From positions 868,001 through 932,000 of the forward strand of contig NADL03000466.1 in NCBI GenBank assembly GCA_002205965.3: a DNA stretch of 64,000 nucleotides, in the 5' to 3' direction. Source of the stretch: Kappaphycus alvarezii. Taxonomy: Eukaryota > Rhodophyta > Florideophyceae > Gigartinales > Solieriaceae. The notes under the pieces were generated by a model. It made no database searches and had not been told where the DNA came from. It saw only the letters and a list, made by a program, of their open reading frames with translations. A program made the position numbers and the translations under genes. The stretch's first letter is position 1; every line of letters begins with the position of its first letter. Shown one piece after another: positions 17,990-63,997 of the stretch.

Positions 17990-18752
17990 AATTTCTTGCA
18001 CAAAAAAGAGATAATTGGCCGCTACGACTACCAAGTGACAATTCTCACGTCTGACTTAGCAAAGGACGCTCTGCTTACAGTCATTGAGCCCCGCCGCAAC
18101 GGCCAACATCCCACGGAGCCGAATATCAGATTGGGAGGAATGGGCTTCTTTGAAGTCACATCCAGGAACCCTACTGCTCCCTAAAACACACGGTTCTGGT
18201 GCTTCAACCCCTCCAAATCTTTGAAAACCGCGAAAGCGTCCAAGTTCATATGTTATCAATAGTTCATCAACGCAAATGCTAGGTCCAAACTCATCCCAGT
18301 GCCGATATGTATCTTGGAGGGTGGTACTCCGTCGTATTTGAGATTCTTACACATGTGGGCAGAGATGTGCTTGCTGTGAGAGCTTCGGAATCTTCGGGCG
18401 GGTACATTCGTCCTCATGGAAAGGAGGAAAAAAAAGAAAGGGTTGCGTGGTTCACTCTTGGAAGATATATCTGAAACGGGAGGTTGAGGGGAAGTTTATT
18501 TCTTCTTCTGACAGGTCTAGTAGAGACGTGCAGAAAGATTCGGGAGATTGGATGCAAAGGCACGCTGCAGCAGCCGTTATATCCAATACGGCCTGCTTGA
18601 TGGCTGGCCTGAGAGTAGCTTTGTAGGGCGCGTAGTTCCTTTCCCCTTAATGTGTTGATATACACTGTTTGAGTGGATTGTGGTTGTCTGGAAATCTATG
18701 TGATAGATAGTATGTATTTTAAAAGAGTAAAACCCCCAAAACTTTTCCCTTA
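17990..18752 (+). pseudogene. R2-like non-LTR element, 3' end (copy 1)
   Basis: The frame 17996-18184 has LTSDLAKDALLTVIEPR then PNIRLGGMGFFEVTSRNP, and after a stop FNPSKSLKTAKASKF and LIPVPICILEGG. The same order occurs in the better copy at 62258-62782 (LERAARRRFIEPR, RPDIRAMG, FDITFVNP, FNPLTSL, VLVPISTLGGW). The catalytic P-D reads P-N here. The C-terminal end MQRHAAAAVISNTACLMAGL lies at 18552-18611 in another frame. The 3' untranslated tail (18671-18752) is a module shared with five other sites. 5'-truncated and frameshifted. Confidence 0.75.
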
Positions 18753-19026
18753 CTAGCGGGACAACCAGAGACATGCTGCGGTGACTTTTTTATCCAAAGC
18801 AGCATGCAATACGGCTGACATCACTCCAGTTCTGTATTGGCATTCTTCTCCTTTCGTATTTTATGCTTGGACACGCCCACAACTGCCCGGGAAAGTAGCC
18901 AAATCTCAAATCAGTAAAATACCTACACTCTACCTCTTGTAATACCTACGTTTTAGTAGCTGGTCCTTGGTATCCCCACTCCTCGATTAACAGTGGATAT
19001 CTCGACATCGCTTTACACATATCCTC

Positions 19027-19689
19027 TGATATAGATAAATTGTCCGAAAAAGAGATATTCGAAACCAATTATCCCAATGAGGAGGTGTTTCAAGCAACAA
19101 TAGTGCTACCGTAGTATAGTTGAACGAACAAAAAGGATTATACAAGGAAAAGAGTTAAGAGGGCTACAAGAAAGTATAAAAGGGGCAGGGTTTAACATTG
19201 ATGCTCTGTGACCAGCGTAGTATAAACTTTCTTAGGTCTGAAGTTGACTCTCAATTTTCTACTACTCCAGTCTTGGCTTGAAGCTGTTTGCCAAATTGCT
19301 TGACCTCTCCAAGAGGGAGCAATTTACTTATCGCATATAGACTTTTTGTGTTAATCCTAAAGTCTCAATGAAACATACTAGGAAACATAAAATACATTCA
19401 AAAGAATCGTTTGAAACAGGGAGACTGTTAGAAGATATTTCTTCGGGTGAATATCTAGGTGCCCTACCCCTGCCCGCCAACCACCGGCCATGGGTGGGAA
19501 TTTGGCCATTATATAGGCCTCTCAGAGTCACTCTTAGTTCTACCTAGAACCTGGAACTATACAGATATCTATTATGACAGCGTGTCCTAAAATAAAAAAT
19601 CAACCCATGAATTTGCCACACGCATCCAAATTAAAATATCTTCCAAATTCAGATACTGCAAAAATATCTTGCAAATTTAACGCACATCA
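19027..19689 (-). repeat. Solo LTR, family A (old copy)
   Basis: In reverse orientation it matches the family A LTRs at 50205 and 62837 over its length, including the TGATAT end, the Phe-box-like CCAATTA stretch, the CTAGGTGCC stretch, the TATATAG promoter-like site and the closing CACATCA. It is 663 bp, shortened near the 5' end. Flanks TCCTC and GCTTC may be a decayed target duplication (3 of 5). No internal region adjoins it, so it is a solo LTR. Confidence 0.82.
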
Positions 19690-19937
19690 GCTTCCTTGGG
19701 CTGTATACTGCTTTGCCATAGCAGTAAACCAATCCAAAAACCCAAAGGTTTCATTGAATGTTTGTAAATGGGGTGGCGCCGTATACTTCATTTTTCCTGA
19801 TTAAGGCAATAGAGGCCTAATTTGGCTAGCCACTGACATACCCCAAGAACGGAGATTCTCTGGAATATAATACTTTCAAGTTGTGCCTTTAAAAGTCGTT
19901 CAAATGCCCTTCCATCAAAAACTGGCGTCATTCTGAA

Positions 19938-20090
19938 AGAGTGTCGCGGCGTGACGAGCGAACAATGTTCGCTGCGCATCAGCAAGGCACCCTACCGCGC
20001 GGGACTTTGCCAACCGGGTTGCGACTGGCATTGCCGCACGGGCAGCCATTCCGATTGCTGATGCACAGCGAATTACAGAAGTGAGATACT
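19938..20090 (+). other. Short GC-rich coding-like fragment
   Basis: One plus frame reads ARHPTARDFANRVATGI then AARAAIPIADAQRITEV, a natural composition in an otherwise AT-rich stretch. No family is recognised and there is no start codon or stop context that would make a gene. Confidence 0.25.
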
Positions 20091-21240
20091 GTAGGCTAGG
20101 TTCTCATTTACAGTACATTTCAGTACAAGGAGCGTTGGCAAATTTGCCCAAGGTGATGGGACAGGCCAAAACGAGCGATATACAGTTCATCTGTAGCCAT
20201 GGGACACTTTGTACAGTTTGTTTCAAGGTCGTTGGCTGGCTGTTGCGACAGTAGAACAATTGAAGGGATCACGATTTTCTCTCTAAATATACAGATACTT
20301 TATGCTGTACTGTACAGTACTCCTGTGTACTCTACGGTACTGTATTCGTAGTCTCGCAGCAATTTCAAGCTGTATGATCCAGGACTGGTTATTCTCTCGA
20401 ATTCAGATGTAGCAGTGTGCAAGTCTACGCTACCATTATCTCATGTAAAATACGCTCAGCCCAGGCCATTGGGCACACCTGAATCTATGGATGAACCTAC
20501 GAATGTACGTCTACGTTTTCCTGTAGATCTAGCGTTGTCACTGAGCTCGAACGTTCTTGTTAGGACATTACAGTCCACTGGTACTTCATAAACAATAAAA
20601 TAACTTTCTTTCACTGGGGATCCTGAAGGTGCAGAATGTGTCCATCTGAATTCCACCGTTAACGTTTATCTTTCATCCATATAGTCTACGTTAGATGAAT
20701 TAAGCATTGAATCCTTCCAGCGTGCCATAGCTCTTATTCAATTCGGAGCATTACGTCAAAAGAGAGACTGCAAGGCTTGTCAGTTCCCACGTCACGCCTA
20801 ACTACGTCGTTACGATGAAAATTGTTGCGACTATCTATTTGAATAGCAATAGTAATAGTAAGCCAACGTTGCCTTACCTATTCAAGAAATATTTCACTAC
20901 TTAAAACCCCTAGGGCCCCTACAGAATTATTTTCTTCTCGGGTCTTTGAATTCACTCAATGCTATTTCAATTGGTTTTCCTTCAAGCAGAGATTGGGTCA
21001 AGCCCCTCAAAGAAACGTCTGAAATTCAATACCTCTAGAAGATAAAACTACTCATGGAACTGTAAACTGCCACCCGTTTTATGGTCCAACTGTTCAAGTC
21101 TGACTACATATTACACACAATGGCCTGCGTTACATTAAGTTTTCAAGGGCCTTCATTCAAGCAAAGAACGAAAATGTTAGAAGATTGTAACAGAAGTTGC
21201 CTATCAGTCTGGAACAAGCCAGAGCGTTCAAGAAGCGATG
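20091..21240. other. Intergenic stretch before the secreted-protein gene
   Basis: It holds repeated TACAGTA/TACTGTA words between 20100 and 20345, including the 14-bp palindrome GTACTGTACAGTAC at 20307-20320. A 66-codon minus-strand ORF (20456-20656) has reasonable composition but no motif and is not called. Confidence 0.5.
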
Positions 21241-21242
21241 GG

Positions 21243-21249
21243 TATAAAT
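21243..21249 (+). promoter_or_regulatory. TATA box of the secreted-protein gene
   Basis: TATAAAT in GGGTATAAATTAG lies 98 bp upstream of the ATG at 21347. A start about 30 bp downstream would leave a 5' leader near 70 bp, rich in CAA and TCA. Confidence 0.6.
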
Positions 21250-21346
21250 TAGAACAAGACATTGGGAGCCCTCAACTTAGTTCTCACTCAACATATCGCC
21301 AACAGCATCCTGCACTATTACTCAATCTCATTCATTTCCAAACACA

Positions 21347-21598
21347 ATGATTGCCAAGATCGCCACCGTCCTCGCCCTTGTCGGTGCAGCCGTCGCTGCT
21401 CCGGTCTCTCGCGCCTCTATCCAAGGTATCCTTAACTCCGGTGCCGGTTTCCAAAGTGATGGTACCACCACTGCCGGTGCCTCTGCTGACTCCGAGTCTG
21501 GGATCGCTGCCGGTTCCCTTGAGGGCATTGGCTCTGTTCTTGGTCTTGCCGGTCCAGGTCTTGCCTCCGCTGCCGCTATCGCCTCTCCGTCTCTCTAA
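21347..21598 (+). CDS. Small secreted protein, 83 aa
   Basis: The protein starts MIAKIATVLALVGAAVAAP: a Lys at position 4, a hydrophobic core at 5-14 and an A-V-A or V-A-A cleavage site near residues 15-18. The mature part of about 65 residues is rich in Ala, Gly and Ser, has no Cys, and shows no recognised domain. A TATA box lies upstream and a TAA ends the frame. Codons end almost always in C or T (GCC, GGT, GTC, CTT, TCC), a bias typical of strongly expressed genes and quite unlike the retroelement ORFs nearby. It is the best case for an intact host gene in the window. It may be a cell-wall or secreted effector-like peptide, but its function is unknown. Confidence 0.85.
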   Translation: MIAKIATVLALVGAAVAAPVSRASIQGILNSGAGFQSDGTTTAGASADSESGIAAGSLEGIGSVLGLAGPGLASAAAIASPSL

Positions 21599-21599
21599 A

Positions 21600-22482: not shown

Positions 22483-22512
22483 CTCGTGCAACTAGGCTAT
22501 TAGTTGCACGAG
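22483..22512. repeat. Perfect 12-bp inverted repeat, 6-nt loop
   Basis: CTCGTGCAACTA (22483-22494), loop GGCTAT, TAGTTGCACGAG (22501-22512). The right arm ends exactly where homology to the non-LTR element begins (22513). Confidence 0.85.
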
Positions 22513-22663
22513 CACCTTCTGGTAGATTGGAGTGCATCCACAGCTTTCGACGCATCGAACGGTTTCGCAATTGGCTTGACAATTATACGATATCTACGCC
22601 CCGGTACAAATTTACGAGATACCAACCACATATCTACCACAGTAAATTAACCCCCATTTACAC
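22513..22663 (+). mobile_element. Severely 5'-truncated non-LTR element, 3' tail only (copy 2)
   Basis: About 150 bp matches, with few changes, the end of the ORF and the 3' untranslated tail of the copy at 62100-62270 in reverse complement (CACCTTCTGGTAGATTGG, GCTTTCGACGCATCG, ATCTACCACAGTAAATTAAC). Homology stops after CATTTACAC. Loss of everything upstream is the usual outcome of incomplete target-primed reverse transcription. Confidence 0.85.
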
Positions 22664-23040: not shown

Positions 23041-23880
23041 CCGAGGAGTGCGTAATCCCGCCGACTGCATTTTGACTCGCCTCGTGCGTTCCGCCAGGAG
23101 CAACTTGTCATCCAGCGGAGGTCGCGGCGTTTTGAAAGCTTGAACAAGGTCAACGACAGAACAAAAGGATTTGAGCCTATTTCGGGGGTTGTTGGCTCGA
23201 AAGAGTGGCTGTCTGTCAGCCCGCCCTAGGACTTGGGAGTTTTATCGTTGACAGCAATTATAAGGCTTGGTTCCAATACTATTGCCGGGTTACCGCTCCT
23301 GGCAGCAGATTCTCCCTGGCCTAAGAAGGGATGGAAGATCTGCATGGACGTGTACGGGGATCACGCCTTGTCTGCAACTTTGGTTCGACTTGGGGAAGGC
23401 GGAATAACTCGCAGGTGTGGTTGTTTGCCAGCGATTTGCCCAAGGCCGCCCGTCGTCTGATTCTGGTACCGCTGGGCCACAAGGATCGGCCGAACATCAA
23501 TGCATTGGGTGCTCAATGGGCAGCGGACTTCTCCGACCTCACGGTCATCCACCCCGAAACGCCTGCCCGCGTTCCGACCCTGTCTCAGTACACAGATAAG
23601 CCGCTTAAGCAAGCCAAAATCGCAAAGGAGGCCCGGTTTTAGGGATTTATTTGTGACCGAAGCCCAGAGAACCGTTTCGTTGCCCTCCAGATCTCGATAT
23701 TTGGCTGATGGCATCCGAATGCTCGCAATTTTGCAAGTCTGTTGGTCTCTTTGATTGCATCGCGAGCTGGGGTGCCCGACGAAGAGGCAAAGAGGCAATC
23801 TTCCATAGGTATGCGGCACGATTGGTGAAGAACAATACTAGTTGCCTTCTTGAGGGCACTAGCGTTTAGATGTAAGCACA
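23041..23880 (+). pseudogene. R2-like non-LTR element C-terminus, divergent subfamily (copy 3)
   Basis: Several plus frames combine into the end of an RT-endonuclease protein. GSKEWLSVSP lies near 23190-23220, followed by IIRLGSNTIAGLPL (the post-RT RLG block). DVYGDHALSATLV at about 23346-23385 matches a D-x-YGDHAL-C motif, with the Cys in the next frame. Then come RPNINALGAQ and FSDLTVIHPE near 23487-23560, fitting R-P-(D/N)-x13-D. The first catalytic Asp is Asn. Downstream frames continue to about 23755 (LADGIRMLAIL). The sequence is clearly distinct from the other copies in the window, so this is a second lineage of the same class. It is frameshifted and lacks the RT palm. Confidence 0.7.
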
Positions 23881-25013: not shown

Positions 25014-25711
25014 GTCTTGAAGAAAGCTCTACGTTTGAGAAGTTTTAGGAGTTGCATTATTTTATTTTCTTCTGAGAAGCTTCGGTTGAATCTATGTGTA
25101 CACATGAGGCCACCTTCTACGTTTCTGATGCATATGGTGCTGTTTTCAAATTTGTTGAAAGTGAAGTTCATGAAAGACCAGTAAAATGCTTCGGTTCTAG
25201 AAATTAAAGCAGGTTAGGAGTCAAGATCGGAGCAAACTCTTCAACTGACTCTCTAAACTCAATACTAAGTGGAAGAATCTGCTCCACTGGAATTTGTTGC
25301 TAGATCATAAGTTCCTCTTTCATTCCTATTCCTTCCTTTTCAGGCAATAATAATAAAGAACTATATTCGCTTGCAGTAATTCTCATCCTGTGCAGTATGT
25401 GGTTCCTATTCTCGTGTAAACCAGTTTTAAAATACCAATTCCCAACCAAAATATGTCTTTCAGTTTTGATTTCGCTCCATTCTCGCAGAGGAAGTCAGAG
25501 ATATGTTGCAATATATGGCTGCGACCTCAACTACCTGGCCCTGCTCAAGTGTAAATCGTTTCCCCTGTTTCATGGTTTCCCTGCTCTTTTGGTAGTTATT
25601 CAGTATTTTTTCGTGCTGTTTCCATTTATGGATGATTTTGGCGAAACTTGCATGTCATGTCAGCTGCCCTATAAGAGATTCCTTATGGATCAATTCAGAT
25701 GAACCTTTTCT
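25014..25711. other. AT-rich stretch, no gene seen
   Basis: A 101-codon plus ORF (25397-25702) is rich in Phe, Leu and Cys with no motif; it overlaps the probable 3' end of non-LTR copy 4 and is not called. Confidence 0.4.
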
Positions 25712-25790
25712 GAGTCGATTGCGGTTGTCTGGAAAACCATGGGATAGGTCGAGTATATATTCCAAGAGTAGAACACCCAAACCTTTCCCC
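25712..25790 (+). repeat. Non-LTR 3' tail module (copy 4)
   Basis: About 80 bp beginning GAGTCGATTGCGGTTGTCTG and ending AACACCCAAACCTTTCCCC, the same 3' module as at 18671, 27254 (minus), 43350 and 50145. The preceding 60-70 bp can be aligned loosely with the C-terminus and early tail of copy 1. Confidence 0.8.
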
Positions 25791-27253
25791 CGATGAATCA
25801 GGTGGTCAGGTTCTGTACTAAAGTGGATGAAAGCACAAAAAAGTAAAATAGATCTTAGATATTTCGTGTGACACTGTGTGCACTTTCAATAGGATCATCC
25901 TGATACAAGTGGCTTTCTTTTAATTCTGATATATTTTCGTCATGAGGTCTGTGTAATTGATTTTGTGCCCCTTGATTTCTTCTTCTGTAAGATTTCATCC
26001 TTCGTCCGTCTGGGTTTGACTCGGAGGATGAAGTCCTCGGTGGTACCACTGAACACCTCACATAGATTGTACGCCTGAATTCATGGGTAGTAGCAATGAG
26101 AAGATGAAACGGATTTCAGGTCCGGAGTACGATGATGGAGAAAGGTTCTATACATGAACCATAATTTTCTACTTAAGTGCGATCTGAAACACCGTTAAAA
26201 TTTTGAAAAACGGGCAGAACACAGTAAAAAGGGAAATAGGCATCAATAATCTTGAACAGCAACATCCCGGGGGAGCATCAACAATTTCTAGGCCAGCCAT
26301 TCATCGCATAGGCCTCGATCTCACGATTGTATCACGACATAATGCAACTGGGCTCTTGTATTTTCCTACTCGAAGTGCCGAAGTTTTCCGTACAACTACA
26401 TTCGAGTCAAAGAAATGTGCCGTCACAGTTGTGGGGAGTAACTATGCCCCATAAAAGGCCGCTATCACGCCAGCCCATCAAGCAGGACCTATCGGACATG
26501 ACGGCCGCTGCAGTGTACCGTTCCATCAAAGCCCTGAACATCAAAGCCCCTGAACATTTCTGCACGGCTTCATTGCCCTCATGGTCACTTTCCTTTCCAA
26601 TTCATTCAATAATGCATACATATCCGGGTTTCAACCTCGAAGAGAGAAGATTGGCACAAGATTGAGCTTAAATCTCGTGTAGTTCGCGATCAAAGATAGA
26701 TATCTTCTCTCTTTTCATTTTCGTACCACATTCAGAGAGGACCTCGAGCTGAAGGCCCTCACTCTCTTGTTGGATCGAGCAAGGAGATTCACGAAGGTAA
26801 AAACCAGAAAATGTGGTCTCTCCGCTGCTTCCCATTTTCTCATTTTTCCGATCTCTTGTGGTGGAGACCGTGACGTGTCTCTACGACAAGATGACGAGCA
26901 GCTCTTGCGAGGTCTTCTGCTATTAAGGTGACTTGTAAATCATGTCAGTTGATCCTGTGGCTTCAAGCAATCAGTTCATGAGATAATAGCCATGAACTTT
27001 GAGGGCCTTTCAGTAATTCCTTCTCAGGTATGTCGTTCCAGAGTGAAAATGTGGCACTAGATATAGTATTGAAGCCACACCGAGAATTGTCGAGGTTAAT
27101 TGCTTTTCTGGTTCCGGGGCATAACAGACAATACACCCATTTCTTAGCTCCGGAAAGGGCCATAGTTGCTCGAAATACTGCCTCCTGAAATCCTCCACAG
27201 GAATTAGATCTTGAATTGCCTCATAGACTCAGTCCCTCAAAATACTTTGCGAT
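25791..27253. other. Mixed stretch with coding-like scraps
   Basis: Plus frames at 26203-26454 and 26327-26665 and minus frames at 26963-27198 have balanced composition (for example GLDLTIVSRHNATGLLYF and DFRRQYFEQLWPFPELRNG), but no motif is recognised and all are short. They may be remains of retroelement ORFs. Confidence 0.3.
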
Positions 27254-27470
27254 GAGGAAAGTTTCGGGTGATTTACTCCTGGAAGATATATATCTGATCT
27301 ATCCAATTGTTTTCCAGACAACCACAATCGACTCAAAAAAAAATTCCGACACAATAATGGTATTTTTGGTGGGAAGAATTACACTGAATCGGATAAACTA
27401 GGCGGCAGACAATAGGTCTACCTCCTCAAATGAGCGGCTGCAGCAGCTTCATATGTTCCCAGCTCCTTAG
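27254..27470 (-). mobile_element. Non-LTR 3' end, minus strand (copy 5)
   Basis: In reverse complement, 27334-27254 is the tail module (GAGTCGATTGTGGTTGTCTG to the AAATCACCCGAAACTTTCC end). Further upstream in sense, GTAATTCTTCCC and a GCTGCTGCAGCCGCT stretch align with the C-terminal codons and early tail of copy 1. A run of nine A (T in sense) interrupts it just before the module. Confidence 0.65.
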
Positions 27471-28229
27471 TAGGAGCTAGGAGCAAGGCCTTTTAAAGAT
27501 TGTTAGATGATAAGCTAGAAGCCAGATATGCCGCAGCTGTGATGTTGTTCTCAAATATAGGCCCGATCCCAATTGATGATTTTCGTGTTCTTGAGGTTGA
27601 TTGGTTGCTGAAGTTCTCGGACTATTTCCGAGTCCAGCACTCCCCTACCAATTTTTGAACACAGTCCTCCATAATCCGGTCGAACTCATTCACGCCTTCT
27701 CCAGTACAATATAGAGGTATTACGCGCCGCAAATAGCCTAATTTGCAGAAGTCAAAACAGATACAGAAGTAGCTAGAACCCCAGTTGCCCAATTGCTAGC
27801 GTCAGAAGTGTATTCGAGGAGCTTTCTGAGATATAAGACATGTTACAGTCTATTAATCCGAAGTAAGCAAAGCTCAGTACTAGCAATGTCATTTGTCAGT
27901 TTTGCCCGTCATTTAATGATTTCACAGCACAGGTACATCTCTTGGTTATTACTTACTCAGGGACAATACTGTTTGCGAGAGTCTCGAGCTGATAATCAGA
28001 AGTATATCAGTGATATATTGCATGATTCGTAAGGACTATATCTGTGCGCTACATCAAACAAATAAACATATATATGTCTGACTATCCTCTACCTTGTTCA
28101 TCTTCAATCAGCTGCGTAACAGGACACGGTTTATAAAGGATCTTTTGTCGATCCGTAGGTCACACAGGGAATTTACCGCTTGCTAGGCAAAATTTGCGGT
28201 GGCATCAAAAGTGGAAATAATGAGGATTT
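27471..28229. other. AT-rich stretch, no gene seen
   Basis: Only a short, motif-free ORF at 27793-28032. Confidence 0.5.
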
Positions 28230-42377: not shown

Positions 42378-42439
42378 CGATTCCCCTGACCGCCAGTGGT
42401 CAGCGTCGTATATAGTCTTCCGCTGCTTCAGAATACTCC

Positions 42440-43229: not shown

Positions 43230-43432
43230 GACAATTTTTTCTATCCTTTCGGTGTAGCAATGTCCACTTGCGGCCCTATTGATGGCATTTAGGAAGCCTT
43301 TTAGAGTTCGTATTTCCTCCCCGACTACTTTGCCTGAATACATTTTTTTAGTCGAATGTGACTGTCTGAAAAACGTTGGTAGAGAACGAATATATCCTCC
43401 AAGAGTAAAACACTCAAGCCTTTCCACTTGCA
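43230..43432 (+). mobile_element. Non-LTR 3' end (copy 6)
   Basis: The tail module is at 43350-43426 (GTCGAATGTGACTGTCTG to AACACTCAAGCCTTTCC). The 120 bp before it align with the last codons and early tail of copy 1 (GCGGCCCTATTGATGGC against CGGCCTGCTTGATGGC, then TTCCTCCCC). Everything upstream is missing or unrecognisable. Confidence 0.65.
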
Positions 43433-43699
43433 GGGGTTTGAACTATTGAGCGGCCTTTTCTTAAGATCTCTCCATGAGTCAAGATCCAAGAAGAAGGCGT
43501 AGAGTCTAACCTACGGCTATCGGCCTTGGGGGAATTTTTGGGTTATTTTAATGCATGGGAGATGTAGTCGGTTATATCCTCACGGCTAATGCATTATGCG
43601 GGATAAGTAGTCGCTGATGGGTAACAATGGTGGTAGATCTTTATTTGTCATACAATGTCGCACAGAGGCGTGCGGAGGGTATTTATAAATTAACTACGG

Positions 43700-44756: not shown

Positions 44757-45830
44757 CCGAGTCAAGACCTGCCAGCAGGCATGTTGCGTTGGAGACTACG
44801 GCCGCGGCACCGTGCCTTTGGGAAAGCACCTCTCAGAACTTGCTATCTGCCTCCATCGCGCGAACGGCCACGTCCTCCGCATCATCGGTTAGCACCCTGT
44901 AGGCGACTGGGTAGAAATCGCCGAGAGTGGATATAGGCATGGGTACGAGGCTAGCGCTCACGGAGTTTGCAATAAAAGATTCATATCTTGTATGCTTTGC
45001 GGGAACGGAACGGCCGCATGAAGGGAGGTGAGCGGATGAAAAGTGTGCACCCTCCTGCGGGAGAGCGGCAGAGGGTCGCCGAATATGACGTCAAAGGAGT
45101 GTGTACCGCCATTGCCTCCCATCACGCGGATGTCTGGCCTCTTGGGTTGTACTCTGTGCCATGGTTTAACGAGGTGGCGGGCCGCTCTCTGCAGGTCTTG
45201 CGCGCCGGAGGACGACTTGACGGTGGTGTCGTCGGGTTCCGTGCCAACGATGGGTACAGTGCAGGAGATGGTGGGCGAAAGAGTATCGGGCACGGCACAT
45301 GGGAGGGGAACGGCGGAACTTGGACCAAGTATTGAAAGGCGAATGGCATGCGTCGAGGCTAAAAGCCTCGTGCAGGTGACCCTAGTTTAAAATGCTTCTT
45401 GTCGATTGCTGTCAGTATGGGGGTGATGGGGCCGTCGAGGTGGAGACCGGCAACGGGGATGCGGTGTGGGGGATGGTTGTCTGGTAGTGCGTGCACAATG
45501 TCGTTTATTGGTTACGAGTAGTATGCCCTGGATGGCAAGGGGTGTGGTGCTGGAACAAATTTGTGAGAGTGAAGGTTGGGAACAAGAGGTTGCCTTTGAC
45601 GGTACGTAACGGTGGTTGCAGCGGATGTGCGAGATAGCGGTTGAGGCGACCATGGTGATGGCTGTTTTGGCTGCGGCGCATTGGCCAGGAGGTGAGCGAC
45701 TGCCTTGAGGTTTAGTGTTTGTTGTGGGGAGAGTGGGCTATGTCGCGGGCCGGGGTAGCGGCATGTTTGCATGTTTGCAGAGGGCCCGAGTCATCTGTTA
45801 TTGTTGCAAAGGGGGGATCTGATTGCAGAT
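44757..45830 (-). pseudogene. R2-like non-LTR element C-terminus (copy 7)
   Basis: The minus frame 44958-45293 has DLQRAARHLVKPW, then RPDIRVMGGNGGTHSFDVIF, which satisfies R-P-D-x13-D with all residues present, then FHPLTSLHAA. A second frame (44829 down) has the C-terminal end QRHGAAAVVSNATCLLAGL. Upstream, to about 45830, frames are Pro/Ala-rich and contain scraps of the region between RT and endonuclease (HALP). The endonuclease nicks target DNA to start reverse transcription. GC-rich compared with its surroundings. The usual 3' tail is replaced after the CLLAGL codons by unrelated sequence. Confidence 0.75.
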
Positions 45831-45943
45831 GTACAGTATTGTAGGACGGCTATGTTACAAGACTAGGCAAAAAAATGGTACCAAGTTATTTACCAAAAAT
45901 TTCAATGCGCTCCGCGAAAGTCCCATTTCACTGGTACATGTCT

Positions 45944-46042
45944 GCGTCCTATGGGATTCGAACCCATGCTCACAACTGTGAAGCAGAATGCTACGATCTA
46001 GTGCCCTTGAGTCTGCCGCCTTAACCGCTCGGCCAAAGACGC
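45944..46042 (-). tRNA. tRNA-Leu(CAA) with intron
   Basis: On the minus strand the acceptor stem is GCGTCTT paired with AGGACGC (one G-T). The D arm is GCCGAGCGGTTAAGGC. The anticodon stem is GCAGA with TCTGC, and the loop has CTCAAG, giving anticodon CAA. An intron of about 17 nt (GGCACTAGATCGTAGCA) follows the base after the anticodon. The long variable arm (TTCACAGTTGTGAG) and T arm (ATGGGTTCGAATCCCAT) confirm the leucine class. Introns in tRNA-Leu(CAA) are common in eukaryotes. It looks functional. Confidence 0.95.
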
Positions 46043-46487: not shown

Positions 46488-46531
46488 CAGACGCCCGCTG
46501 ACCCCAGCAACTCCAACCGTTCACCTCCACC

Positions 46532-48837
46532 ATGCTTCTCCTTGCGTTCACCGCTCCCTTGCCGCCCGCTAAACTCCCAAATACCCCCAAACAATCCCCC
46601 CTCCCCTCCCCGCAACCCCGCCCTCCTCCCCTACAAAACAACCCCTGCCTCGCCCACCGTGAATCCTCCCACCGCTACGCACACAAAAATCACACCATGA
46701 ACTCGCCCCAAAATCCGTCCCGTCCCCGTCCTCGCCTTCCAAACTCTCCACCGTCCTGGACCCCGTCTCTGACATCTTCTCCCCGACACAGTTTTTTAAC
46801 CTCACCCCGCAGCACACTCCCAACACCGGAACAAAACCCCGTCCTCCTCCTCCCAACTCTGTCGACATCCAGCCCTTTCTCCTTCCCCCCGTCACCCCAT
46901 CCTCTGCCCCTGCACCAGCCCCTGCCCCATCACCATCCTCTCTCTCCCACCAACAACCCCTCTCCCATGCACTCATCTTCCACCAGCGCCCCACCAACAG
47001 CCCCAAACCCTCTCAAAACAACCTCCTCCCCATCCCAACCACTCCCATCCTCGGAACAAACCCCGCAGACCCCTTTGCCACTCCCCCTCCAACCCAACAC
47101 TCCTCAACCCCCCAACGCTCCCCAAATACCACTTCTCTCCCACCGCAGTCCGACCCCGCTGATCCATTCCTGCAATTCCTTCACACCAACAACTACCCCT
47201 CCACAATCCCCACCCATCCATCCTCTCCATCTCCCATCCACCCCTCCTCTCCCATGCGCTCATCATCCACCAGCGCCCACCAACAGCCCCAAACTCTCTC
47301 AAAACAACCTCCTCCCCAGCCCAACCGCTCCCATCCTCGAAACAAACCCCGCAGACCCCTTTGCCACTCCCCTCCAACCCAACACTCCTCAACACCCCCT
47401 AACGCTCCCCAAATACCACTTGTCTCCCACCGCAATCCGACCCCGCTGATCCTTCCTGCAATTCCTCACACCAACAACTATCCCCTCCACAATCCCACAA
47501 CCACCATCCTGTCATCCCCTCCACCCCTCCCTCCCTACCACCCTACCACACCTCAACACCAACAGCACACAAAACATCTTTCAAACAGACCCCGCCACCC
47601 CCCACACACACCGAACTCCACCCATGCACAGCCGTTCTTCTCATCACCACTTCACTCCACCCCGTCCCCGAACCGGCCCCCAACAACCCACTGAAAATCC
47701 ACCCCCTCACCAACACATCAACCCCACCTTTGGCGTTCCATCCACCATTCCCGATCCCTCCTTTTTCAAGACTGAAATCAGCAACTACTCCAAACCCACA
47801 CCACCCCTTTCCACTCCTCCACCAAAACCAAAATCTATACGACTCTGTCCAACCACCCTCTGACCCTGTCCTACCCCCTCCCATCCCGCACAACCCACTC
47901 CCCGTCCCCAATCCCGACTCAATCCTAGTCCTCGACATCTCAACGACCCCATGCCCCAACTACTCCTCCCCAACGCAATCAACCCTACCGACATTCCCGA
48001 CACCCTCATGTCCCCAGTCTACCACCAATCACACCCCGACCCGACCAACACCTCAACAATCCCAACACCCAATCCCCACCCCCTCCCCAACCACTCCACC
48101 CCCGTCCATCCTGCAAACACCACTCACTCAAGCCCCACAACCCCAGCAAGAAAAACAAAAACTCGTCTGCACCACTTGCTCTCCGCTCCTTTGCAAACAA
48201 GACAAACCTCGTGCGACACCAACGCAGCGTCCACGGCCCAACCGCCACCTTGAAATGCCTCGAATGCAACGCCCCGTTCACCTCGAAGAAAAGCCTCGCC
48301 ACCCACGCCACGAAGCCCACGGCATCGTCCCAATCACACACATCATTCGCGGTCTTCGCGAAAATGCAAACCACGCAGACGAAACACGACCTCCAGTCTG
48401 CACGTGTATCGTCGTCTGACCGCATGGAGGAGAGCCATTCTCCAGTCGAATCTCGTCGCTGTTTCGCGTGAAACGCGGACTCGTGCCCGCGAGTCGCGTA
48501 AGTAGACGGAGGCGCACTTTTCGTGACACGGAAAGTGACGAATTGCATCGACGATTCGGCTGTATCGGAGCCTTCGCAGCAGTCCAGAATATCCCGACTT
48601 TGAGGAGGTCCAGGAGACTCGCGGGGGAAACCCCGACCAGTGGCCGCGTTGATAAGCGCAGGGCAAATCTGTATCATTGTCACTTTTGTCCAAAGACTTC
48701 CCCGTATCTTGCAAATATAAATAGACATATGGATATTGTTCACAGGAAGATCAAGCCCTTTGTGTGAAAAGTGTGGCCGCTCGTTTGGTACTAACCATAA
48801 TCTTATCTTGCACAAGTGCTCTGCGACAGAAAACTAG
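46532..48837 (+). pseudogene. Proline-rich C2H2 zinc-finger protein, multiply frameshifted
   Basis: From ATG 46532 about 1.6 kb encodes Pro/Ser/Thr/His-rich low-complexity protein. The best sense moves between all three frames (for example DPVSDIFSPTQFFNL, NPADPFATP, DPMPQLLLPNAINPTDIP). Zinc fingers follow. Finger 1 (48168-48234) has CTTC and FANKTNLVRHQRSVH with a 1-nt excess. Finger 2 (48256-48320) has CLECNAPFTSKKSLATH with a 1-nt deficit between the histidines. Finger 3 (48678-48743) is intact, CHFCPKTSPYLANINRH. Finger 4 (48763-48819) has CEKCGRSFGTNHNL after a KPF linker, 2 nt out of frame, ending H-K-C. TAG is at 48835-48837. A nucleic-acid-binding role is likely. It could be a decayed transcription factor, or the N-terminal part of an R2-like element, a class that carries such fingers. 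Confidence 0.6.
46940..47530 (+). repeat. Tandem duplication of about 287 bp inside the proline-rich gene
   Basis: The segment containing CCCATGCACTCATC at 46964 is repeated with CCCATGCGCTCATC at 47251, and homology continues through ACAAACCCCGCAGACCCC to the CAACAACTA block. The 287-bp offset is not a multiple of three, so the second unit is read in another frame. This accounts for one of the frame changes. Confidence 0.8.
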
Positions 48838-49639: not shown

Positions 49640-50204
49640 TCATATGCCTTTTTGGGTAGAAAGAGCTGCACTGCTGTCGCTACTTCCCGAGATTGGAAAT
49701 GGCAGGTCTGCGTATTGGAGACAGAGACAGACAGACAACCTCACAAGACTGGGTTAAGGCCAGCCGCAAGAGGCGTGGGACGAATCCGTCGCTACGATAT
49801 ATCTTTGCATGTGGACGTACCCCGCCCTCGCGACGGTCGCCATAGCTCTCGTAGCGTCGGACCACATCCGTCAGTAACGAAAATGCGGCGGAGTGTTACT
49901 CTCTTAGAGTGGATATTGGGAGTAGAAGAGTTTCGCCTGGTATTCGTGGTGGTACACTTTTGAAGCCTGTTGAACTCGGTATTTTTCGCGGCGTTGAAAG
50001 ATGCGGTAAGGTTCGGGGGGTTTTGATGCAAAGGCACGCCACAGCAGGCGTCATGTCCAATGCGGCCTGCTTGATGGCTGACCTGAAAGTATCATTTTAG
50101 GGAGCGTAGTTCCTTCCCCATTACTGTGTCGATATACCCTTTTAGAGTCGACTGTGGTTGTCTGGAAAACCATGGGATAGATCGGATATATTTTCCAAGA
50201 GTAA
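49640..50204 (+). pseudogene. R2-like non-LTR element 3' end (copy 8, left part)
   Basis: The frame 49556-49963 contains RRYDISLHVDVPRP and RLVFVVVHF in the order of the FDITFVNP and RLVLVPIST blocks of the 62.3-kb copy. The next frame (49909-50100) ends with KVRGVLMQRHATAGVMSNAA then CLMADL and TAG, a good match to the C-terminus of the family. The tail follows (GTAGTTCCTTCCCC, then the module from 50145) and is cut at 50204 by a solo LTR, resuming at 50920. Confidence 0.7.
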
Positions 50205-50919
50205 TGATGTCGCATATTCGCACACAGAAAAAAATCTAGATGAGGACCATAATGTTACAGTATCGGAATTGAGAAGATATTTTTACAGTTTTTGAATTTG
50301 CAAGATATTTTTAATTTGGGTGAGTGTGGCAAATTCATCGGTTGATTTTTTTCATTTTAGGACACGCTGTCATAGTAGATGTCAGTACAGTTCCAGGTTG
50401 TGGGTGATACTACAAGTAGCTCTGAAAGGTCTATATAATGGCCACATCAATTCCCACCCCTGGCCGATAGGTGGCTGGCATGAGTATGGCACCTAGATAT
50501 TTACGTTGAGGAAATATCTTCTAATAGTCTCTCTGGTTCACACGATTACTGTAAATACATTTTATGGTTATTAGTATGCTTGTTTGAGACTTTTTGGGGT
50601 AGCCAAAAGTCTATAAAAGCCGAGTAAACTGCTTCCTTTAGTGGAAGTGAAGCAAGTTGGCAGACAACTTCAAGCCAAGTCCCGAGTAGTGGGAAGTTGA
50701 GAGTCAACTTCAGACCCAAGAAACTTTTCTTACGCTAATCGCAGAGCGTCGGTGGTAGACCCTGCCCTTTTATACTTGCTTGTAGCTTCCTCAACTCTTT
50801 TCTATATACACTCCCTTTTGTTCGTTCAACAATACCACGGTAGCACTTTTGTCGCTCGCAAATCCTTCTCAGAGTAATTGGTTCTGAGGATCTCTTCCCC
50901 CGCTTATTTACCCCTATCA
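50205..50919 (+). repeat. Solo LTR, family A (young copy)
   Basis: 715 bp from TGATGTCGCATATTCG to ACCCCTATCA, flanked by AGTAA on both sides (50200-50204 and 50920-50924). It is nearly identical to 62837-63559. Two possible promoters are visible: CTATATAATGG near 50432 and TATAAAAGCCG near 50615, the latter followed by AGTAAAC. It has no internal region. Confidence 0.94.
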
Positions 50920-51254: not shown

Positions 51255-51840
51255 CAACATCGAGCCAGCCATTTAGGCACATGACTCACATTAACAATTA
51301 TCTTGAACATGTCTAGCATACACGGGGGAAAGCCGAACCGCACTTTCACAAATTAAAGAACCAAATCAATTCTCATGTACAAATCATTGCTTTCAAATGC
51401 TAACACAAGCAACAGTCTACCAGAAAGTCGGTGGGATGCCAGGCAGCAGACAAGCAGCGTTAGAAGTTACTGCCAATGCCGAGTGGTGTCGCCAAAGAAA
51501 AATGCCTCGAACCTTCGAAACCCGTTCCATTGCGCGGCTGAAGACGGTTCTTGCAAGGTCCATGACGACTGAAAACGCCGCTGGATGCCATCCGCGAAGA
51601 GTAGAGATTGGAGCAGTAACCAGCCTGCTTCTCGCCAGTAATTCCACAAGAAAGTATTGGTACTTCTGCCGCTTTTCCGCGCTCGCTACATTGAGACACT
51701 TGTCATCGGTTGAAAGTCCAGACTCTGGAATGGGAGGGAGCGAGAGGACTGACGAATGTTATGTCGAAATAGTCAGTTCCGCCGGCGGCACCTATGGCGC
51801 TGATGTCCGGTCTTGTCCGTTATTCAGTATTTTAGGCTGA
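51255..51840 (-). pseudogene. R2-like non-LTR element 3' end (copy 9)
   Basis: On the minus strand, 51840 down to 51419 matches the 62258-62690 copy closely. It includes the GGCGCTGATGTCC stretch that encodes the R-P-D region, the KQRKY-like region, CSNLYSSRMASSG in place of LVPISTLGGWHP, and the C-terminus TSNAACLLPGIPPTFW then stop. Frames change twice. The 3' tail can be followed to about 51255 (GTGAGTCATGTGCCTAAATG). The 5' part is missing. Confidence 0.78.
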
Positions 51841-58200: not shown

Positions 58201-61200
58201 CTGATTCAAAATTAAAGTTTCAATTATAAATGTCGTAAAGCCCAAGTTATCTTTCATTCCAGACGTCGATCTTAAAAGAAGTTCTCCGTCAAAGATATTC
58301 TAATGAAATACTTTAATTTGTTTTAAAACTTTCAATCGACCTCAGTTTTCAAAAAACTGGAACATTAATATATACAATTTTCCATGGAACACTTCTTATT
58401 TTGCCTAAATATATTCCCCGTCCATACTTTGTTCATTGTTGGCACTAATTGAGATCTTCAATATTTAATTTTTCACTGTAGGGTTTCCTAGTTTTGTTTA
58501 GAATAGAAATATTGGGGACATTTTCTGTTAGCAAGGAAGCACATAGTTCTAGTCATTTATGTTACTTGAATTGATTTATGATTTTCTTTATCGAAACCTC
58601 CAGATATACATTTCAAAATTCCATGCTTTAATGTGAGACTTTACTCAAATATAAGTCGATTCAGAAATATTTATTTTAACTAAATTAGTCGAAAGTGAAG
58701 CCTAAATTGAGCTAGTAAATGATAATAACTATCCTTTTTTGTTATTCTTGATAGATTTAATCGTAACGTAGTAAGAATGCTCAAAAGAATAACCTAAAAT
58801 ATTTATGATTGTCGAATAAGTGCAGGTGTAAATTTAATGTCTCCTGAACTCTTCTCGTACAAATAAGTTGCAATAAGTTTGCTCATCTAAATTAATAAAT
58901 AATCTTCGATTTAACATCAAAAACATTTAAATATTTCTGCAAAAAGTTTTAAAAGGATTATTTACTCAACTATTTGACTGGAGGTCTAAGATTCCTTTGA
59001 TCTAATGTATACAATACCATTATTTATGTTCCCAATCTGATGAATTACAATATCTAAGATGAATATCAAATACTTTTTCGTAATAGGAAATAGAATTGAA
59101 ACTAGATTTTACCAATACTACTTAATTTTTCTGATATTTTCGTTAGAAAAAGCACAAGGTGTTGGAGCGTTTTTTTAATGATTTCGTATAAAATATGTAC
59201 CTTTAGACGAACTTTTAATGAATAGAAAACATCTCTAAAACTTAACCCATAAGACTTTACCTGGAAAAAGTACTGCAACAAATTTGTCATATTGTGGATT
59301 ATTTGAAATATTTCGAGCCTTATTGTTGCTTTCAAATCTCAAAGGGTAAATAATAGTAGTGAATTGCGTAACTATCTAAATACTGACCAGTATCACAGAT
59401 TTCCTATTAAAATGCCATGAACAATGATATGCTTTCTATTTTCGCGTGTGCTTGAATTTTTTATACTGAAATTCTGAATATCATTAACGTTTGAGGGTCA
59501 TTATCTACTTCAGAACCCTGACGGAATAATGAACAATCCATCTTTCACATTTTAATACCGTTTCTTCAGAAAAACGTTTCACCTGAAGATCTGATAAGAG
59601 TACAACCATGTATCGAGACAGCGAAGGAGTAAAACAAATGTTTGTTTCACGATTAAAAGTTTCTTTGATTTTATAATTACTTACATGTGAACAGACAATG
59701 CGATGCGATATTTACTCATAAAGCATGAATCCCAGTATGGAACAGATTTATGAAATAAAACACGAAGTAAAAGCTATGTAATAATCATTAGAGAGGTATG
59801 TATGAGATATATGACAACGAAGATTAGTTTTCTGAACGAGTCCCTGACAAATGTTTTAAAAAAATGAATATAGACCTAAAAGTTTTTTTCCCCATAAATT
59901 CTAAATAATAATTTCCCCAATTGTTGGAAAACATTATTGAATTCAAGTTCATTGGGGATTAGAATCATCAAGTAGGTGAGAGGTATATTTTATAGGAATT
60001 GAATTGAAAAAATGGAACGGAAGTGAAGTTCCGATGTAGAAGACTTCCTCATTACGTTGTTCATAATCTGTGTTTACTTTGAAAACAATTATTTTTGAAT
60101 CGGAAAGGGCCACAATTTAAATGCATTCATTTCATAGCAAATAAATTGGTAAGTTATAAAGCGAAGTAGTTTTTAGAGAATCAGGAATAATGGAAATTTG
60201 GAAAAAGTACCGTAAAAATGTGACGTCCCTGTGAGTAAGTTGGTGCTCTGTAGACCATGAATGGAGCGAGTTCTGATAAAAATTTGAAGTCATAAAGACA
60301 ATTGTCATTATGATATTAAGTTATAGTAACTGCTGTATTTTAAATGAAACACTGCCTTTTTGCAAAGTACATCCTCCACTACAGATCACATTTATTTACA
60401 CTCTTAGTTCTGTCTTTTCATTAGCTTATTTACAATCTTATTTCTGTCTTTTCATTAGCTTATTATGGTTATGTTTTACTCTTTTATTCTTGAAAATTTA
60501 AACTTCAAGTTGATAAATCTGCAATTTCCCGGGTTGTATACTATTTTCTTCTCCGGTTTTTGGAAACTGTTCTTTCTTGAAGTTTTCGTTCACATTTGTA
60601 TTACTAAAATGAAAAGACATTTTAAAAATCATTACGGTAATTTCCACTTTCTAGTGAATTCTAAAGCAAAAAAAGCATCTCAACTTGGACATTTCCAGGT
60701 GGATAAAAATGTACTCATGTACTGTACTTTCAGAATAATCTCAAATTAATTTGATATGGGCATTTTGGGCATGTTTACATCAATAAGAGAAATATTATTT
60801 TGGAAATGAAACCTCCTTATTAGGAACTTTGTGTTTATGAAAACAACTTTTTAGACCAGGTCTGAATATGGGTGTTTGAGATAGTACTTAAATCGTACGA
60901 AGGATTGCGTGTGGGTGTTTTCAGTGTTAGAACTTTGTTGATCAAGTAAATGTAAAACATAATTACATCAGAGAATGAAATAACTGACCGCAGTATGTTA
61001 TTGTATGAAAGCCTTGGGGGAAAATTGGAGGACAGATCCTGCCTTTACGCACCTAACCAACACCTTCGAAAGTCTGCATTGTGTAAACAATTTAAACACA
61101 TATTGCGTGGTATTTTGAAAGTTTTCTGCTAAACAGTTTCGGTAGCCCGACGTACATGTGAGCTGAGTGAGCTACTTCCCGTGAAATACAGGCTATATGA

Positions 61201-62009
61201 AACTTCGTCAGTCCTGAAGGAGGAAGACGTGAAGTTCAATTACTGTATCAGATACACCAAGTCAACTTGTATAGTATTGTCAAATAGAATAGCAGCAGAA
61301 TGTACTTGAAAGTTCCGAGTCGCGTCATGTACATGAGATATTGTTGAATTTTCTTTACTGTTTCAAATACCTGCACTCAATCTCCATCCATACATAGCTG
61401 TTGTAATGATTCTGGTAACGTGAGTACTTCCAACTATCACGATTTTTTTCAATTGGGGACCGCAAACACCTTTCAGTACTCCTCGCGGGTTTATTCTGGC
61501 TCTTGTACCTATTTTAAGTCCCTTTCCATGGTGGTGTTTTCCTTAATACGGCAACGCTTATGAACAGGTTTCCTACTGAATGTTTTTCATTAAAAGGGCC
61601 ATGATCATGTAGTTTGCCTTTCTTTAAACTCATGAAAAATTTTCAACAGGATTTCGAAATCCACTTCTCCGAGCCGGCAAAATGAAATGAGTAAGCATAC
61701 GGTTAGTTAAGCATACGGTTAGTTTCTGCCCACCGCTTCACTTCAAAGACCTGAGAAACCTTTGCCTTCTGTCAGTGGGACTATTACTCCTTATTTGTAA
61801 ATTTTGCACTTTCTCCCTTAAACATTTGATCGAACGAGGGTTTAACCCCATCATTCACTCCATCCGCAGCAGTTCAACCGCATTTTAGCCCTCTATTCCC
61901 TTCTTACTAGCTAGAGAATATCCTCTTGTGTCCCCTATCAATTTTCTTTTACGATTCAAGCACAAAGCGATTTTATCAATTGCTTTCTACTCTAGAAGAG
62001 CAAACGTAT
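55260..62009. other. AT-rich region without recognisable genes
   Basis: Stops are dense on both strands. Short tandem duplications are the only structures noted: 34 bp twice at 60392-60459 (TTATTTACAxTCTTAxTTCT...) and 16 bp twice at 61693-61724 (AAGCATACGGTTAGTT). The largest ORF (60465-60749) is rich in Phe, Lys, Asn and Leu with no motif. Confidence 0.6.
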
Positions 62010-62095
62010 TACTACGACAATATTTTGCAGCAGCAGCGGTGATGTCCAATACATCATGCCTGCAGACAGGCTTCGAGCCAGCAATTTAGGCACAT
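62010..62095 (+). mobile_element. Plus-strand scrap of the non-LTR C-terminus (copy 10)
   Basis: The frame FAAAAVMSNTSCLQTGFEP matches the HAAAAVISNTACLMAGL end of copy 1. It lies head-on against the minus-strand copy that follows, so the two 3' ends meet tail to tail. Confidence 0.5.
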
Positions 62096-62099
62096 GACT

Positions 62100-62836
62100 C
62101 ACCTTACCCATTATCCGTGTAAATGGGGGGTTAATTTACTGTGGTAGATATGTGGGTTGGTATCCAGTAAATTTGTACCGGAGCGTAGATATCGTATCAT
62201 TGTCAAGCCAATTGCGAAACCGTACGATGCGTCGAAAGCTGTGGATGGCACTCCAATCTACCAGAAGGTGGAAGGGAGGCCAGCCAGCAAACAAGCGGCA
62301 TTGGAGGTTACTGTCAAAGCGGAGTGCCGCTGTAAAAGAATGGCTCTAACCTTCGAAAACCGTTCCATTGCGCGGGTGGCAACGGTTCTCGCGAGTTCCT
62401 TGACGACGGAGAACGCCAAAGGATGCCAACCTCCAAGCGTTGAGATGGGGACAAGAACCAGCCTGTTTCTCCCAGGCAGCTCAGCAAGGAACCCTTGGTA
62501 TTTCCGCTGCTTCTCTGCGTGAGCTGCGTTGAGGCTAGTGAGTGGGTTGAAAGCCCTGGCTCTTGCGTGGGAGGGAGCGAGCGGGTTGACAAAGGTTATG
62601 TCGAAGTAGTCCGTGCCATCGGCGGCTCCCATCGCCCTGATATCCGGCCTCGTCCTGTTATGGTAGTGTAGACGAGGTTCGATGAATCGACGTCGGGCGG
62701 CTCTTTCAAGGTCGTTCCCCAGTAAAGTCACCTGGTTGTTATGGCGAGTATTCCGCTCGCAGCCAAAGCGACAATGTAGCAAGTGGTCCCGTAGATATCC
62801 AGCATTTCATGGCATCCTGCTTTGGGGCAAGGGGTA
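62100..62836 (-). pseudogene. R2-like non-LTR element, endonuclease domain and 3' end (copy 11, downstream part)
   Basis: The minus frame 62782-62258 (174 aa) is the best copy of the endonuclease end. It has C-x3-C then H (CRFGCERNTRH, residues 4-14), LERAARRRFIEP (25-36), and RPDI with P46-D47 then thirteen residues to D61 in FDIT. This satisfies the (K/R)PD-x12-14-(D/E) signature of restriction-like endonucleases in R2-type elements. KQRKY (91-95), LVPISTLGGW and the C-terminus QRHSALTVTSNAACLLAGL follow. The enzyme nicks the target to prime reverse transcription. The 3' tail continues to about 62100. Its upstream part lies beyond the solo LTR. Confidence 0.85.
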
Positions 62837-63559
62837 TGATGTGCGCAAATTTGCACACGAAAAAAAATCTAGATGAGGACCATGATTGTATACAGTATCG
62901 GAATTGGGAAGATATTTTTACAGTTTTTGAATTTGCAAGATATTTTTAATTTGGGTGAGTGTGGCAAATTCATCGGTTGATTTTTTTCATTTTAGGACAC
63001 GCTGTCATAGTAGATGTCAGTACAGTTCCAGGTTGTGGGTGATACTACAAGTAGCTCTGAAAGGTCTATATAATGGCCACATCAATTCCCACCCCTGGCC
63101 GATGGGTGACTGGCATGGGTATGGCACCTAGATATTTACCTTGAAGAAATATCTTCTAATAGTCTCTCTGGTTCACACGATTACCGTAAATACATTTTAT
63201 GGTTATTAGTATGCTTGTTTGAGACTTTTGGGGTAGCCAAAAGTCTATAAAAGCCGAATAAACTGCTTCCTTTAGTGGAGGTGAAGCAAGTTGGCAGACA
63301 ACTTCAAGCCAAGTCCCGAGTAGTAGGAAGTTGAGAGTCAATTTCAGACCCAAGAAAACTTTTTCTTACGCTAATCGCAGAGCGTCGGTGGTAGACCCTG
63401 CCCCTTTTATACTTGCTTGTAGCTTCCTCAACTCTCTTCTATATACACTCCCTTTTGTTCGTTCAACAATACCACGGCAGCACTTTTGTCGCTCGCAACA
63501 CCTCCTTCTCAGGGTAATTGGTTCTGAGGATCTCCTCCCCCGCCGATTTACCCCTATCA
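62837..63559 (+). repeat. Solo LTR, family A, nested in the non-LTR element
   Basis: 723 bp from TGATGTGCGCAAATTTG to ACCCCTATCA, flanked by GGGTA on both sides (62832-62836 and 63560-63564). It is nearly identical to 50205-50919. The TATAAAAG at 63246-63253 is the likely promoter, with GAATAAAC just downstream. Confidence 0.95.
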
Positions 63560-63997
63560 GGGTACCTGGGGCGAATAAGGGGGTTTGGCAAAAGTACTGG
63601 AACCACACGGAAAAGTCTTTGCTCTTGATGTGCGTCCTCAATCCAGGGCAAGGTGCACAGTAGACCCAGCCTTTGGCACCGGGGGGGACATGCTAGCGCG
63701 GAAGGCGCGGGTGCGGATGTTTCCGAGCGGCAAGGCCTCTTGCACAGCCATATGAATTGCATCTGTTAGCTTCTTCTGCGATGGTGGGTTGGATGAGCAG
63801 AAATTGCTAAACGGAATTCGTTCTGAGGGTCGACAAGAGGCGCTCCATGCGGTAAAGGCGGCTGTAGCATCCTCGTACTGCGTCAGGTCTTGAACACAGG
63901 ACGGCAAAGACTTCTCGCATAACTGCTGCGTCGCGGCGCTGGACGCAAGAAACGAAGCGGCGGCGACATCTCGCGCGGAGGAGAGGCCGATTCCCAA
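63560..63997 (-). pseudogene. R2-like non-LTR element, region after the RT palm (copy 11, upstream part)
   Basis: The minus frame 63997-63638 begins GIGLSSARDVAAASFLASSA, matching the G-L-G-x-R-S-A-x-D-x-A-x-A-x-FLAS block found C-terminal to the RT palm in this class. A region of no clear motif and RAFRASMSPP follow. Sense continues toward 63565 in other frames and then on the far side of the LTR. Nothing further upstream is in the window, so the RT itself would lie beyond base 64000. Confidence 0.72.

Follow-up and report, generated by a model that had tools for sequence, protein, structure and literature searches.

What kind of mobile element left the coding fragments scattered over a stretch of 64,000 nt of the Kappaphycus alvarezii assembly (contig NADL03000466.1, 868,001–932,000; this whole stretch is called the window below)? 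A first-pass annotation of the window had read them as a dispersed, R2-like family of non-long-terminal-repeat (non-LTR) retrotransposons. Our analysis indicates that the fragments are very probably relics, from several subfamilies, of one lineage of non-LTR retrotransposon (long interspersed nuclear element, LINE) with a restriction-like endonuclease (RLE). The young family of this lineage is supported as being dispersed and not site-specific.

The evidence comes first from a complete element found elsewhere in the same genome. The assembly searched holds 336,021,096 bases in 884 contigs; all of the 150 places scored among 18,497 candidates matched, at least 38 of them, at different places, sharing a score of 377.8, and 34 regions with 35 alignable copies were fetched. 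One copy, L009, carries an open frame of 1149 codons (P0001; 1141 codons from the first Met), in which a C2H2-type zinc finger (C-x2-C-x15-H-x4-H at 53) is followed by a reverse transcriptase (RT; SVDLKNAF at 539, QQGDP at 594, YHDDG at 638), a zinc knuckle (C-x4-C-x9-H-x3-C at 960) and a PD-(D/E)xK-type RLE (RHN at 988, RPD-x13-D at 1020, KQRKY at 1066, GGW at 1092). Absence of the nuclease motif from full-length copies had been raised as a possible objection; the motif is present in this intact frame. L026 has both element ends: its 4,250 bases of element lie between the two copies of an exact 11-bp duplication, ATAATTTTGAT, and its frame is broken in the assembly. The element measures 4.25 kb, with a 5′ untranslated region (UTR) of ~0.69 kb, one frame of ~1141 codons and a 3′ UTR of ~140 nt, which has no regular poly-A and terminates most often in ..AGTAAATTAACCCCCCATTTACAC (the element 3′ end is also cited as ..AACCCCCCATTTACAC). 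This end is near-constant: after ..AGTAAATTAACC, 13 of 35 ends read CCCCATTTACAC and many others are close variants, with unrelated sequence directly beyond the 3′ ends of the copies.

Two other loci can be described beside these copies. In L020 (3632–3991), a divergent subfamily has YADD replacing HDDG in RT motif C, and in L010 (7321–8670) two element copies lie tail to tail, with the 3′ end repeated between them.

By comparison with known proteins, P0001 falls nearest to R2. The sole Pfam family reported at E≤10 is RVT_1 (468–678, E 1.9e-10), with neither a Myb domain nor an apurinic endonuclease (APE) family at that threshold, and the nearest PDB sequences are R2 proteins (9nl3, 7.5e-10; 9dou, 1.2e-9; 9nl2, 5.9e-4), as against 0.28 for L1 ORF2p. 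A profile of 20 genomic pieces of the family (A4) matched R2 chains at 9.6e-12 and 1.6e-11 and R2Bm at 3.8e-5, in alignments that span the RT into the RLE, whereas L1 was matched at 0.013 in the RT part only. By score, both comparisons thus put the RT closer to R2 than to L1, and the placement in an APE clade that the first-pass annotation had named as the opposing outcome was not found, as far as tested. The core of RLE LINEs is given as a catalytic K in K-x2-K-Y, GXW, RH and D/E (PMC5678591). All of these residues are present in P0001 and aligned with R2; with R2Bm, the core aligns as far as the segment used, which ends before GXW and has one PD residue changed. The PDB comparison with R2 has a second, weak stretch (2.5 and 2.2 bits, below significance by itself) in which K-x2-K-Y and GxW are in register. 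With R2 (R2Tg 9dou, R2 9nl3, R2Bm 8ibw/8gh6) the element shares one frame with RT, knuckle and RLE, and RHN, E-P, (R/K)PD-x12/13-D and K-x2-KY in register, GxW being shared as well in 9nl3/9dou. It differs from R2 in lying outside ribosomal DNA (rDNA) at the 20 loci scanned, in having no Myb domain reported by Pfam, in the HDDG of motif C and in the C-x4-C-x9-H-x3-C knuckle; it differs from Dualen, which has both APE and RLE, in that no APE family is reported in P0001. Taken as sequence comparison, these likenesses support the reading of the window elements as R2-like RLE non-LTR retrotransposons, of the R2 group in the broad sense.

How much of this element is left in the window? Seven RLE non-LTR coding fragments were found, together with 3′-end scraps. 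A six-frame motif search located R-P-D-x13-D at 62600–62650 (−), 51763–51813 (−) and 45090–45140 (−), the first and the last of which had already been noticed by the first-pass annotation (its copies 11 and 7), and homology among the three fragments was shown by tblastn; other matches at 62633–62683 (+) and 27632–27682 (−) are chance frames. Among 100 Markov-shuffled windows, RPD-x13-D is expected 0.35 times per window and the PD-D-K..KY core 0.04 times, while the full RLE signature (RH, E, RPD-x13-D, K-x2-K-Y, GxW) occurred in 0 of 100 versus one real match, in the copy at the window edge; the R-P-D-x13-D motif claimed before is confirmed, and the full signature is complete in this edge copy and in P0001. 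A tblastn query with the edge copy's RLE frame (62258–62806) reached 51.4–51.8, 44.8–45.2, 23.3–23.8, 18.0–18.3, 26.6–26.9 and 50.0–50.1 kb. When the full-length protein and subfamily pieces were the queries, coding matches at E≤1e-4 lay at 18.0–18.3, 23.1–23.9, 26.5–27.8, 44.8–45.4, 50.0–50.1, 51.4–51.8 and 62.3–64.0 kb, to which a small RT piece (43.4–43.5 kb), a 72-base match (19.9 kb) and 3′-end scraps at 22.5, 25.7, 27.3 and 43.3 kb are added; coding and 3′-end matches together amount to 4,810 of the 64,000 bases. Of the earlier claim that at least eight fragments share a full motif order, the fragments stand, as seven coding ones and scraps, and the order does not: it is whole in the 62–64 kb copy only, which alone has LGGW in frame, the other window copies being frameshifted and holding subsets of the motifs (AACLL occurs in two window copies). 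The copies are as follows.

62117–64000 (−): edge copy (copy 11 of the first-pass annotation), with linker, part of the knuckle, RLE and 3′ UTR; young subfamily
62258–62806 (−): RLE-domain open frame with RH, E, RPD-x13-D, KQRKY and GGW, the same motifs being in P0001
62828–63559 (no strand): 730-bp repeat R1 inside the edge copy, foreign to the element
51420–51819 (−): RLE fragment with RPD-x13-D, 74–78% amino-acid identity to the intact protein, dN/dS (ratio of nonsynonymous to synonymous divergence) 0.18
49987–50204 (+): copy of another subfamily, represented by its C-terminal end (QRH..SNAACL) and by a 3′ UTR in which R1 (50196–50919) sits
44758–45337 (−): RLE fragment (copy 7 of the first-pass annotation) with RPD-x13-D, frameshifted
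43260–43529 (no single strand): 3′-end scrap (+, 43260–43434) and RT-motif scrap (−, 43425–43529)
26544–27759 (−): RT-thumb, linker and RLE fragment, split by a 3′-end scrap at 27256–27360 (−)
25703–25806 (+): 3′-end scrap of a second subfamily
23134–23857 (+): knuckle and RLE fragment of divergent subfamilies, 24–65% amino-acid identity to the queries
22513–22663 (+): 3′ end alone of a young-subfamily copy, terminus ..CCCCCATTTACAC
18020–18749 (+): RLE fragment from a copy of another subfamily, with C-terminal end and 3′ UTR

Followed past position 64000, as had been suggested, the edge copy continues to the equivalent of window position 66042 and is then 5′-truncated, with a 5′ end that falls within the coding region, at reference-locus position 5472. 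It is split by the 730-bp repeat, which is regarded as an insertion because the intact frame reads straight across that point.

Some observations on this repeat and on a related locus are given in their own right. Copies of the repeat lie at 62828–63559, 50196–50919 and 19026–19677 (−), with 95% and 79% identity, and two of them sit in RLE-LINE copies; short duplications were seen by eye at the junctions and no internal inverted repeat of 11 bp was found. At L002 (G000:C678:568071), the RLE is 99–100% identical to that of the edge copy, with an equal-sized gap at the 730-bp insertion point and the same 3′ flank, so that L002 and window 62–64 kb look like a segmental duplication.

Does the family insert at one site, as R2 does, or anywhere? 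Target-site duplications (TSDs) were sought in 30 copies with both ends resolved by comparing the longest flank match with that of mismatched flank pairs of the same copies. A TSD of at least 7 bp was found in 17 of the 30 copies versus 2.5% of mismatched pairs, and one of at least 9 bp in 11 of 30 versus 0.11%, examples being AGTATCT, ACTTTCAAGG, AAAGAAGTCCA and AATACGGCATATT. The two tail-to-tail copies of L010, L024 (3′-truncated) and L026 and L038 (whose 5′ end was then unresolved) were left out of the count. L024 is the same locus as L004, at which a script found an 11-bp match; L001–L008 are short views, mostly of loci counted elsewhere, and L041 gave 0 under the rule of the count and an 11-bp match under a looser rule. 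The flanks of young copies are unrelated to one another, and the 5′ ends are spread over many element positions, many copies being 5′-truncated. Rfam at gathering thresholds gave no match in any of the 20 loci scanned (34 fetched), thus those copies were not seen in rRNA, U2 or tRNA genes, and it gave no rRNA family in the window, in agreement with the earlier statement that no copy sits in rDNA. Together, unrelated sites, TSDs and the lack of an Rfam match argue for a dispersed, recently active RLE LINE and not for R2 proper.

Target-primed reverse transcription with a staggered second cut is established for R2-type elements. It fits the present family, since RT and RLE lie in one protein and the copies show 5′ truncation, TSDs and 3′ ends that are nearly fixed and carry few extra bases. 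The element protein would bind its own mRNA, the RLE would nick one strand with little or no sequence specificity at the site, and the freed DNA 3′ end would prime reverse transcription from the RNA 3′ terminus; a staggered second cut would then produce duplications of about 7–15 bp, and incomplete synthesis would leave the many 5′-truncated copies. The nuclease seems to need little sequence, as the TSDs vary from copy to copy. Pairing of the RNA 3′ end (AC) with 2–3 nt of the target is suggested only: a fixed-rule script found the last bases of the element matched by 2 or more target bases upstream of the TSD in 4 of 10 copies with a canonical end (binomial 0.0024 at 1/16), a figure relied on instead of a hand count that gave at least 2 nt in 7 of 15 copies. 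At L038, 21 bases 5′ of the element are identical to the L026 flank plus TSD, the first five of which may be L038's own target; this looks like a 5′ transduction, most simply explained if L038 derives from an L026-locus transcript that started in the L026 flank.

Selection on the protein can be approached from twelve divergent pieces, which were compared with P0001. Eleven of them have a proportion of synonymous differences (pS) of 0.66–0.88 (at least 0.8 in eight) and of nonsynonymous differences (pN) of 0.23–0.46, and the twelfth, the 51.4-kb copy of the window, has a dN/dS of 0.18; we read this as suggesting a protein conserved between subfamilies, with silent sites near saturation. Copies of the young subfamily have diverged little (dS 0.02–0.09). 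Four comparisons within it gave dN/dS of 0.40–1.12, the edge copy having the value of 1.12; this agrees with neutral decay since insertion plus few changes, and the family looks young in this genome. Among 37 hand-picked frameshift sites, 14 lie in runs of at least 4 equal bases, versus 5.7% of the frame's bases, and many of these homopolymer frameshifts may be assembly errors. The assembly seems to be prone to such errors, and counts of broken frames therefore call for caution. The commonest frameshift probably falls within a long run of C present in most copies, although a script written to show this matched nothing. Several copies have frameshifts in common, which raised the thought that the commonest copies form a defective lineage mobilized in trans; this was left unproven, as assembly error would explain the shared frameshifts equally.

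A number of observations weigh against the reading of the fragments as a recently active, R2-like RLE LINE. The entire frame is open in one fetched copy only (L009), no zinc finger is called in P0001 by Pfam, and no strong constraint is apparent within the young subfamily. Searched by itself, the RLE frame of the window-edge copy was matched by no Pfam family and by no relevant PDB sequence (one PDB row, E 1, a nanobody), and a profile of window fragments (A1) gave no PDB match, while structure predictions from A4 and A7 are of low confidence (mean predicted local distance difference test, pLDDT, 41.1 and 46.7). RT motif C is HDDG versus FADD in two R2 chains, and the knuckle has C, C, H and C in order at a spacing outside the published range, CX2-3CX7-8HX4C for RLE LINEs (PMC5678591). 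As to insertion, the TSD script found no flank match of at least 7 bp in 13 of 30 copies, its rule admits up to 6 element bases, the longest match, of 21 bp in L018, is out of register, and the 4 of 10 copies with 3′ microhomology are too few for firmness.

Is the lineage new? Of the undescribed dispersed lineage proposed by the first-pass annotation, the dispersal holds, given the unrelated flanks and TSDs; that it is undescribed was not shown, target-free R2-group elements being in print. Such elements are BLAG of Blattella germanica (German cockroach), at unrelated sites (PMC7650587), R2-homologous elements of sponges (Porifera) without site specificity (PMC13188248), and EhRLE3, HERO, YURECi and further Repbase entries reported as apparently without target specificity (PMC3636483). 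A dispersed RLE LINE is therefore not new in kind, and this family is an addition. BLAG is alike in being an R2-like RLE LINE of 3.2–3.7 kb and 974–1073 amino acids at unrelated sites, with no Myb, and unlike in its 3–6 copies per family (PMC7650587), as against at least 38 identical-score places among the 150 scored here. BLAG elements are also marked by a bipartite BLAG motif, which lies between their zinc finger and RT (PMC7650587). The Porifera elements are alike in their R2-homologous protein and variable flanks, and unlike in that those counted carry Myb (PMC13188248), none being reported in P0001. Utopia and NeSL share the RLE, an N-terminal zinc finger and, in some families, a weak target choice, but Utopia inserts in U2 small nuclear RNA genes (PMC4640811), while no U2 match was seen in 20 of 20 loci scanned here; an account of oomycete Utopia (PMC5348765) leaves this assessment unchanged.

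Four IMG/VR queries gave no relative (three gave candidate stretches and one no stretch), and a scan of public genome contigs gave one, L043 (PIVT01000140.1, 5.3 kb), which is filed under a proteobacterial metagenome-assembled genome and is probably a misbinned eukaryotic contig. It has a frame of 1711 codons (P0005), which aligns colinearly with P0001 across 772 columns and is 23% identical to it there (E 5e-23). Both have the colinear RT, GDH-x3-C, RPD and a C-terminal QR..AL..A..LA, whereas P0005 differs in a long N-terminus with a ubiquitin-like domain, in K-x2-KW for K-x2-KY and in having no GxW. Since a colinear protein exists elsewhere, the architecture is not confined to this genome. 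Many invertebrate proteins in the databases probably have such a pattern.

We consider it fairly probable that the family is not a new lineage and falls within a dispersed RLE clade that is on record already, whether Hero, NeSL, CRE, R4 or Utopia of Repbase or an R2-like clade without a name; the target-free R2-group elements cited above and the presence of P0005 in an unrelated public contig speak for it. Against this, no match found names the lineage, the comparison having been made with sequences other than those of Hero, NeSL, CRE, R4 and Utopia; the knuckle has no R between its first and second Cys, a residue reported there for many RLE clades, among them R2, Dong, NeSL and Utopia (PMC5678591), and its spacing differs from the published one. 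No description of the lineage was found in titles and abstract starts of the open literature.

That the family is a true R2 with functional copies in 28S rDNA, of which the window would hold ectopic dead copies, is very improbable: the best solved relatives are R2 proteins, yet the young copies have unrelated flanks and TSDs of their own, rRNA was seen in 0 of the 20 loci scanned, and Pfam reports no Myb domain. An APE-type LINE with RPD motifs arisen by chance is already contradicted and has hardly any probability, for although RVT_1 alone is not decisive, Pfam reports no APE family, P0001 has the complete RLE signature, parts of which are conserved between subfamilies, and the L1 ORF2p match is confined to the RT. 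Equally contradicted, at a negligible probability, is a host nuclease gene family or another selfish nuclease without a retrotransposon, which the mostly nuclease and linker pieces of the window might suggest and which the RT in the same frame of the intact copy, the TSDs and the 5′ truncations oppose.

The window holds other features besides the RLE LINE copies. Direct repeats at 12791–13201 and 17360–17771, 85% identical, flank a copia-type gag frame (13504–14094; E 4.6e-6, just under the Pfam cut-off), and 12791–17771 is probably an old copia LTR element. Proline-rich frames, a 286-bp tandem repeat (46931–47535) and then C2H2 zinc-finger motifs in shifted frames occupy 46502–48833; the proline-rich zinc-finger frame at 46.5–48.8 kb was rejected as a candidate for the 5′ part of the element, there being no P0001 match there at E≤1e-4. 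A tRNA gene of 100 bases at 45943–46042 (−) scores 50.5 bits in Rfam and was not listed by ARAGORN with bacterial settings; by eye, it looks like a tRNA-Leu with an intron.

What does a dispersed family of this type mean for RLE LINEs, which are described as mostly site-specific (PMC4640811, PMC5678591)? It is conceivable, if rather unlikely, that the elements represent an unnamed RLE clade common to distant eukaryotes (P0001 and the ubiquitin-tagged P0005), in which target specificity has been replaced by short pairing of the RNA 3′ end (ACAC) with the nicked DNA. The proposed clade would be recognized by RPIAVGE or something close to it, by a motif C that reads HDDG or YADD, and by the GDH-x3-C knuckle. 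If this is true, the PD-(D/E)xK nuclease would act as a generalist that can fill a genome. Retrotransposons are under consideration for gene therapy (PMC13188248), and the question of how they choose their targets is of interest for that reason. A family that is young, dispersed and present in many copies, one of them intact, offers a natural comparison for asking which part of an R2-type protein fixes target choice.

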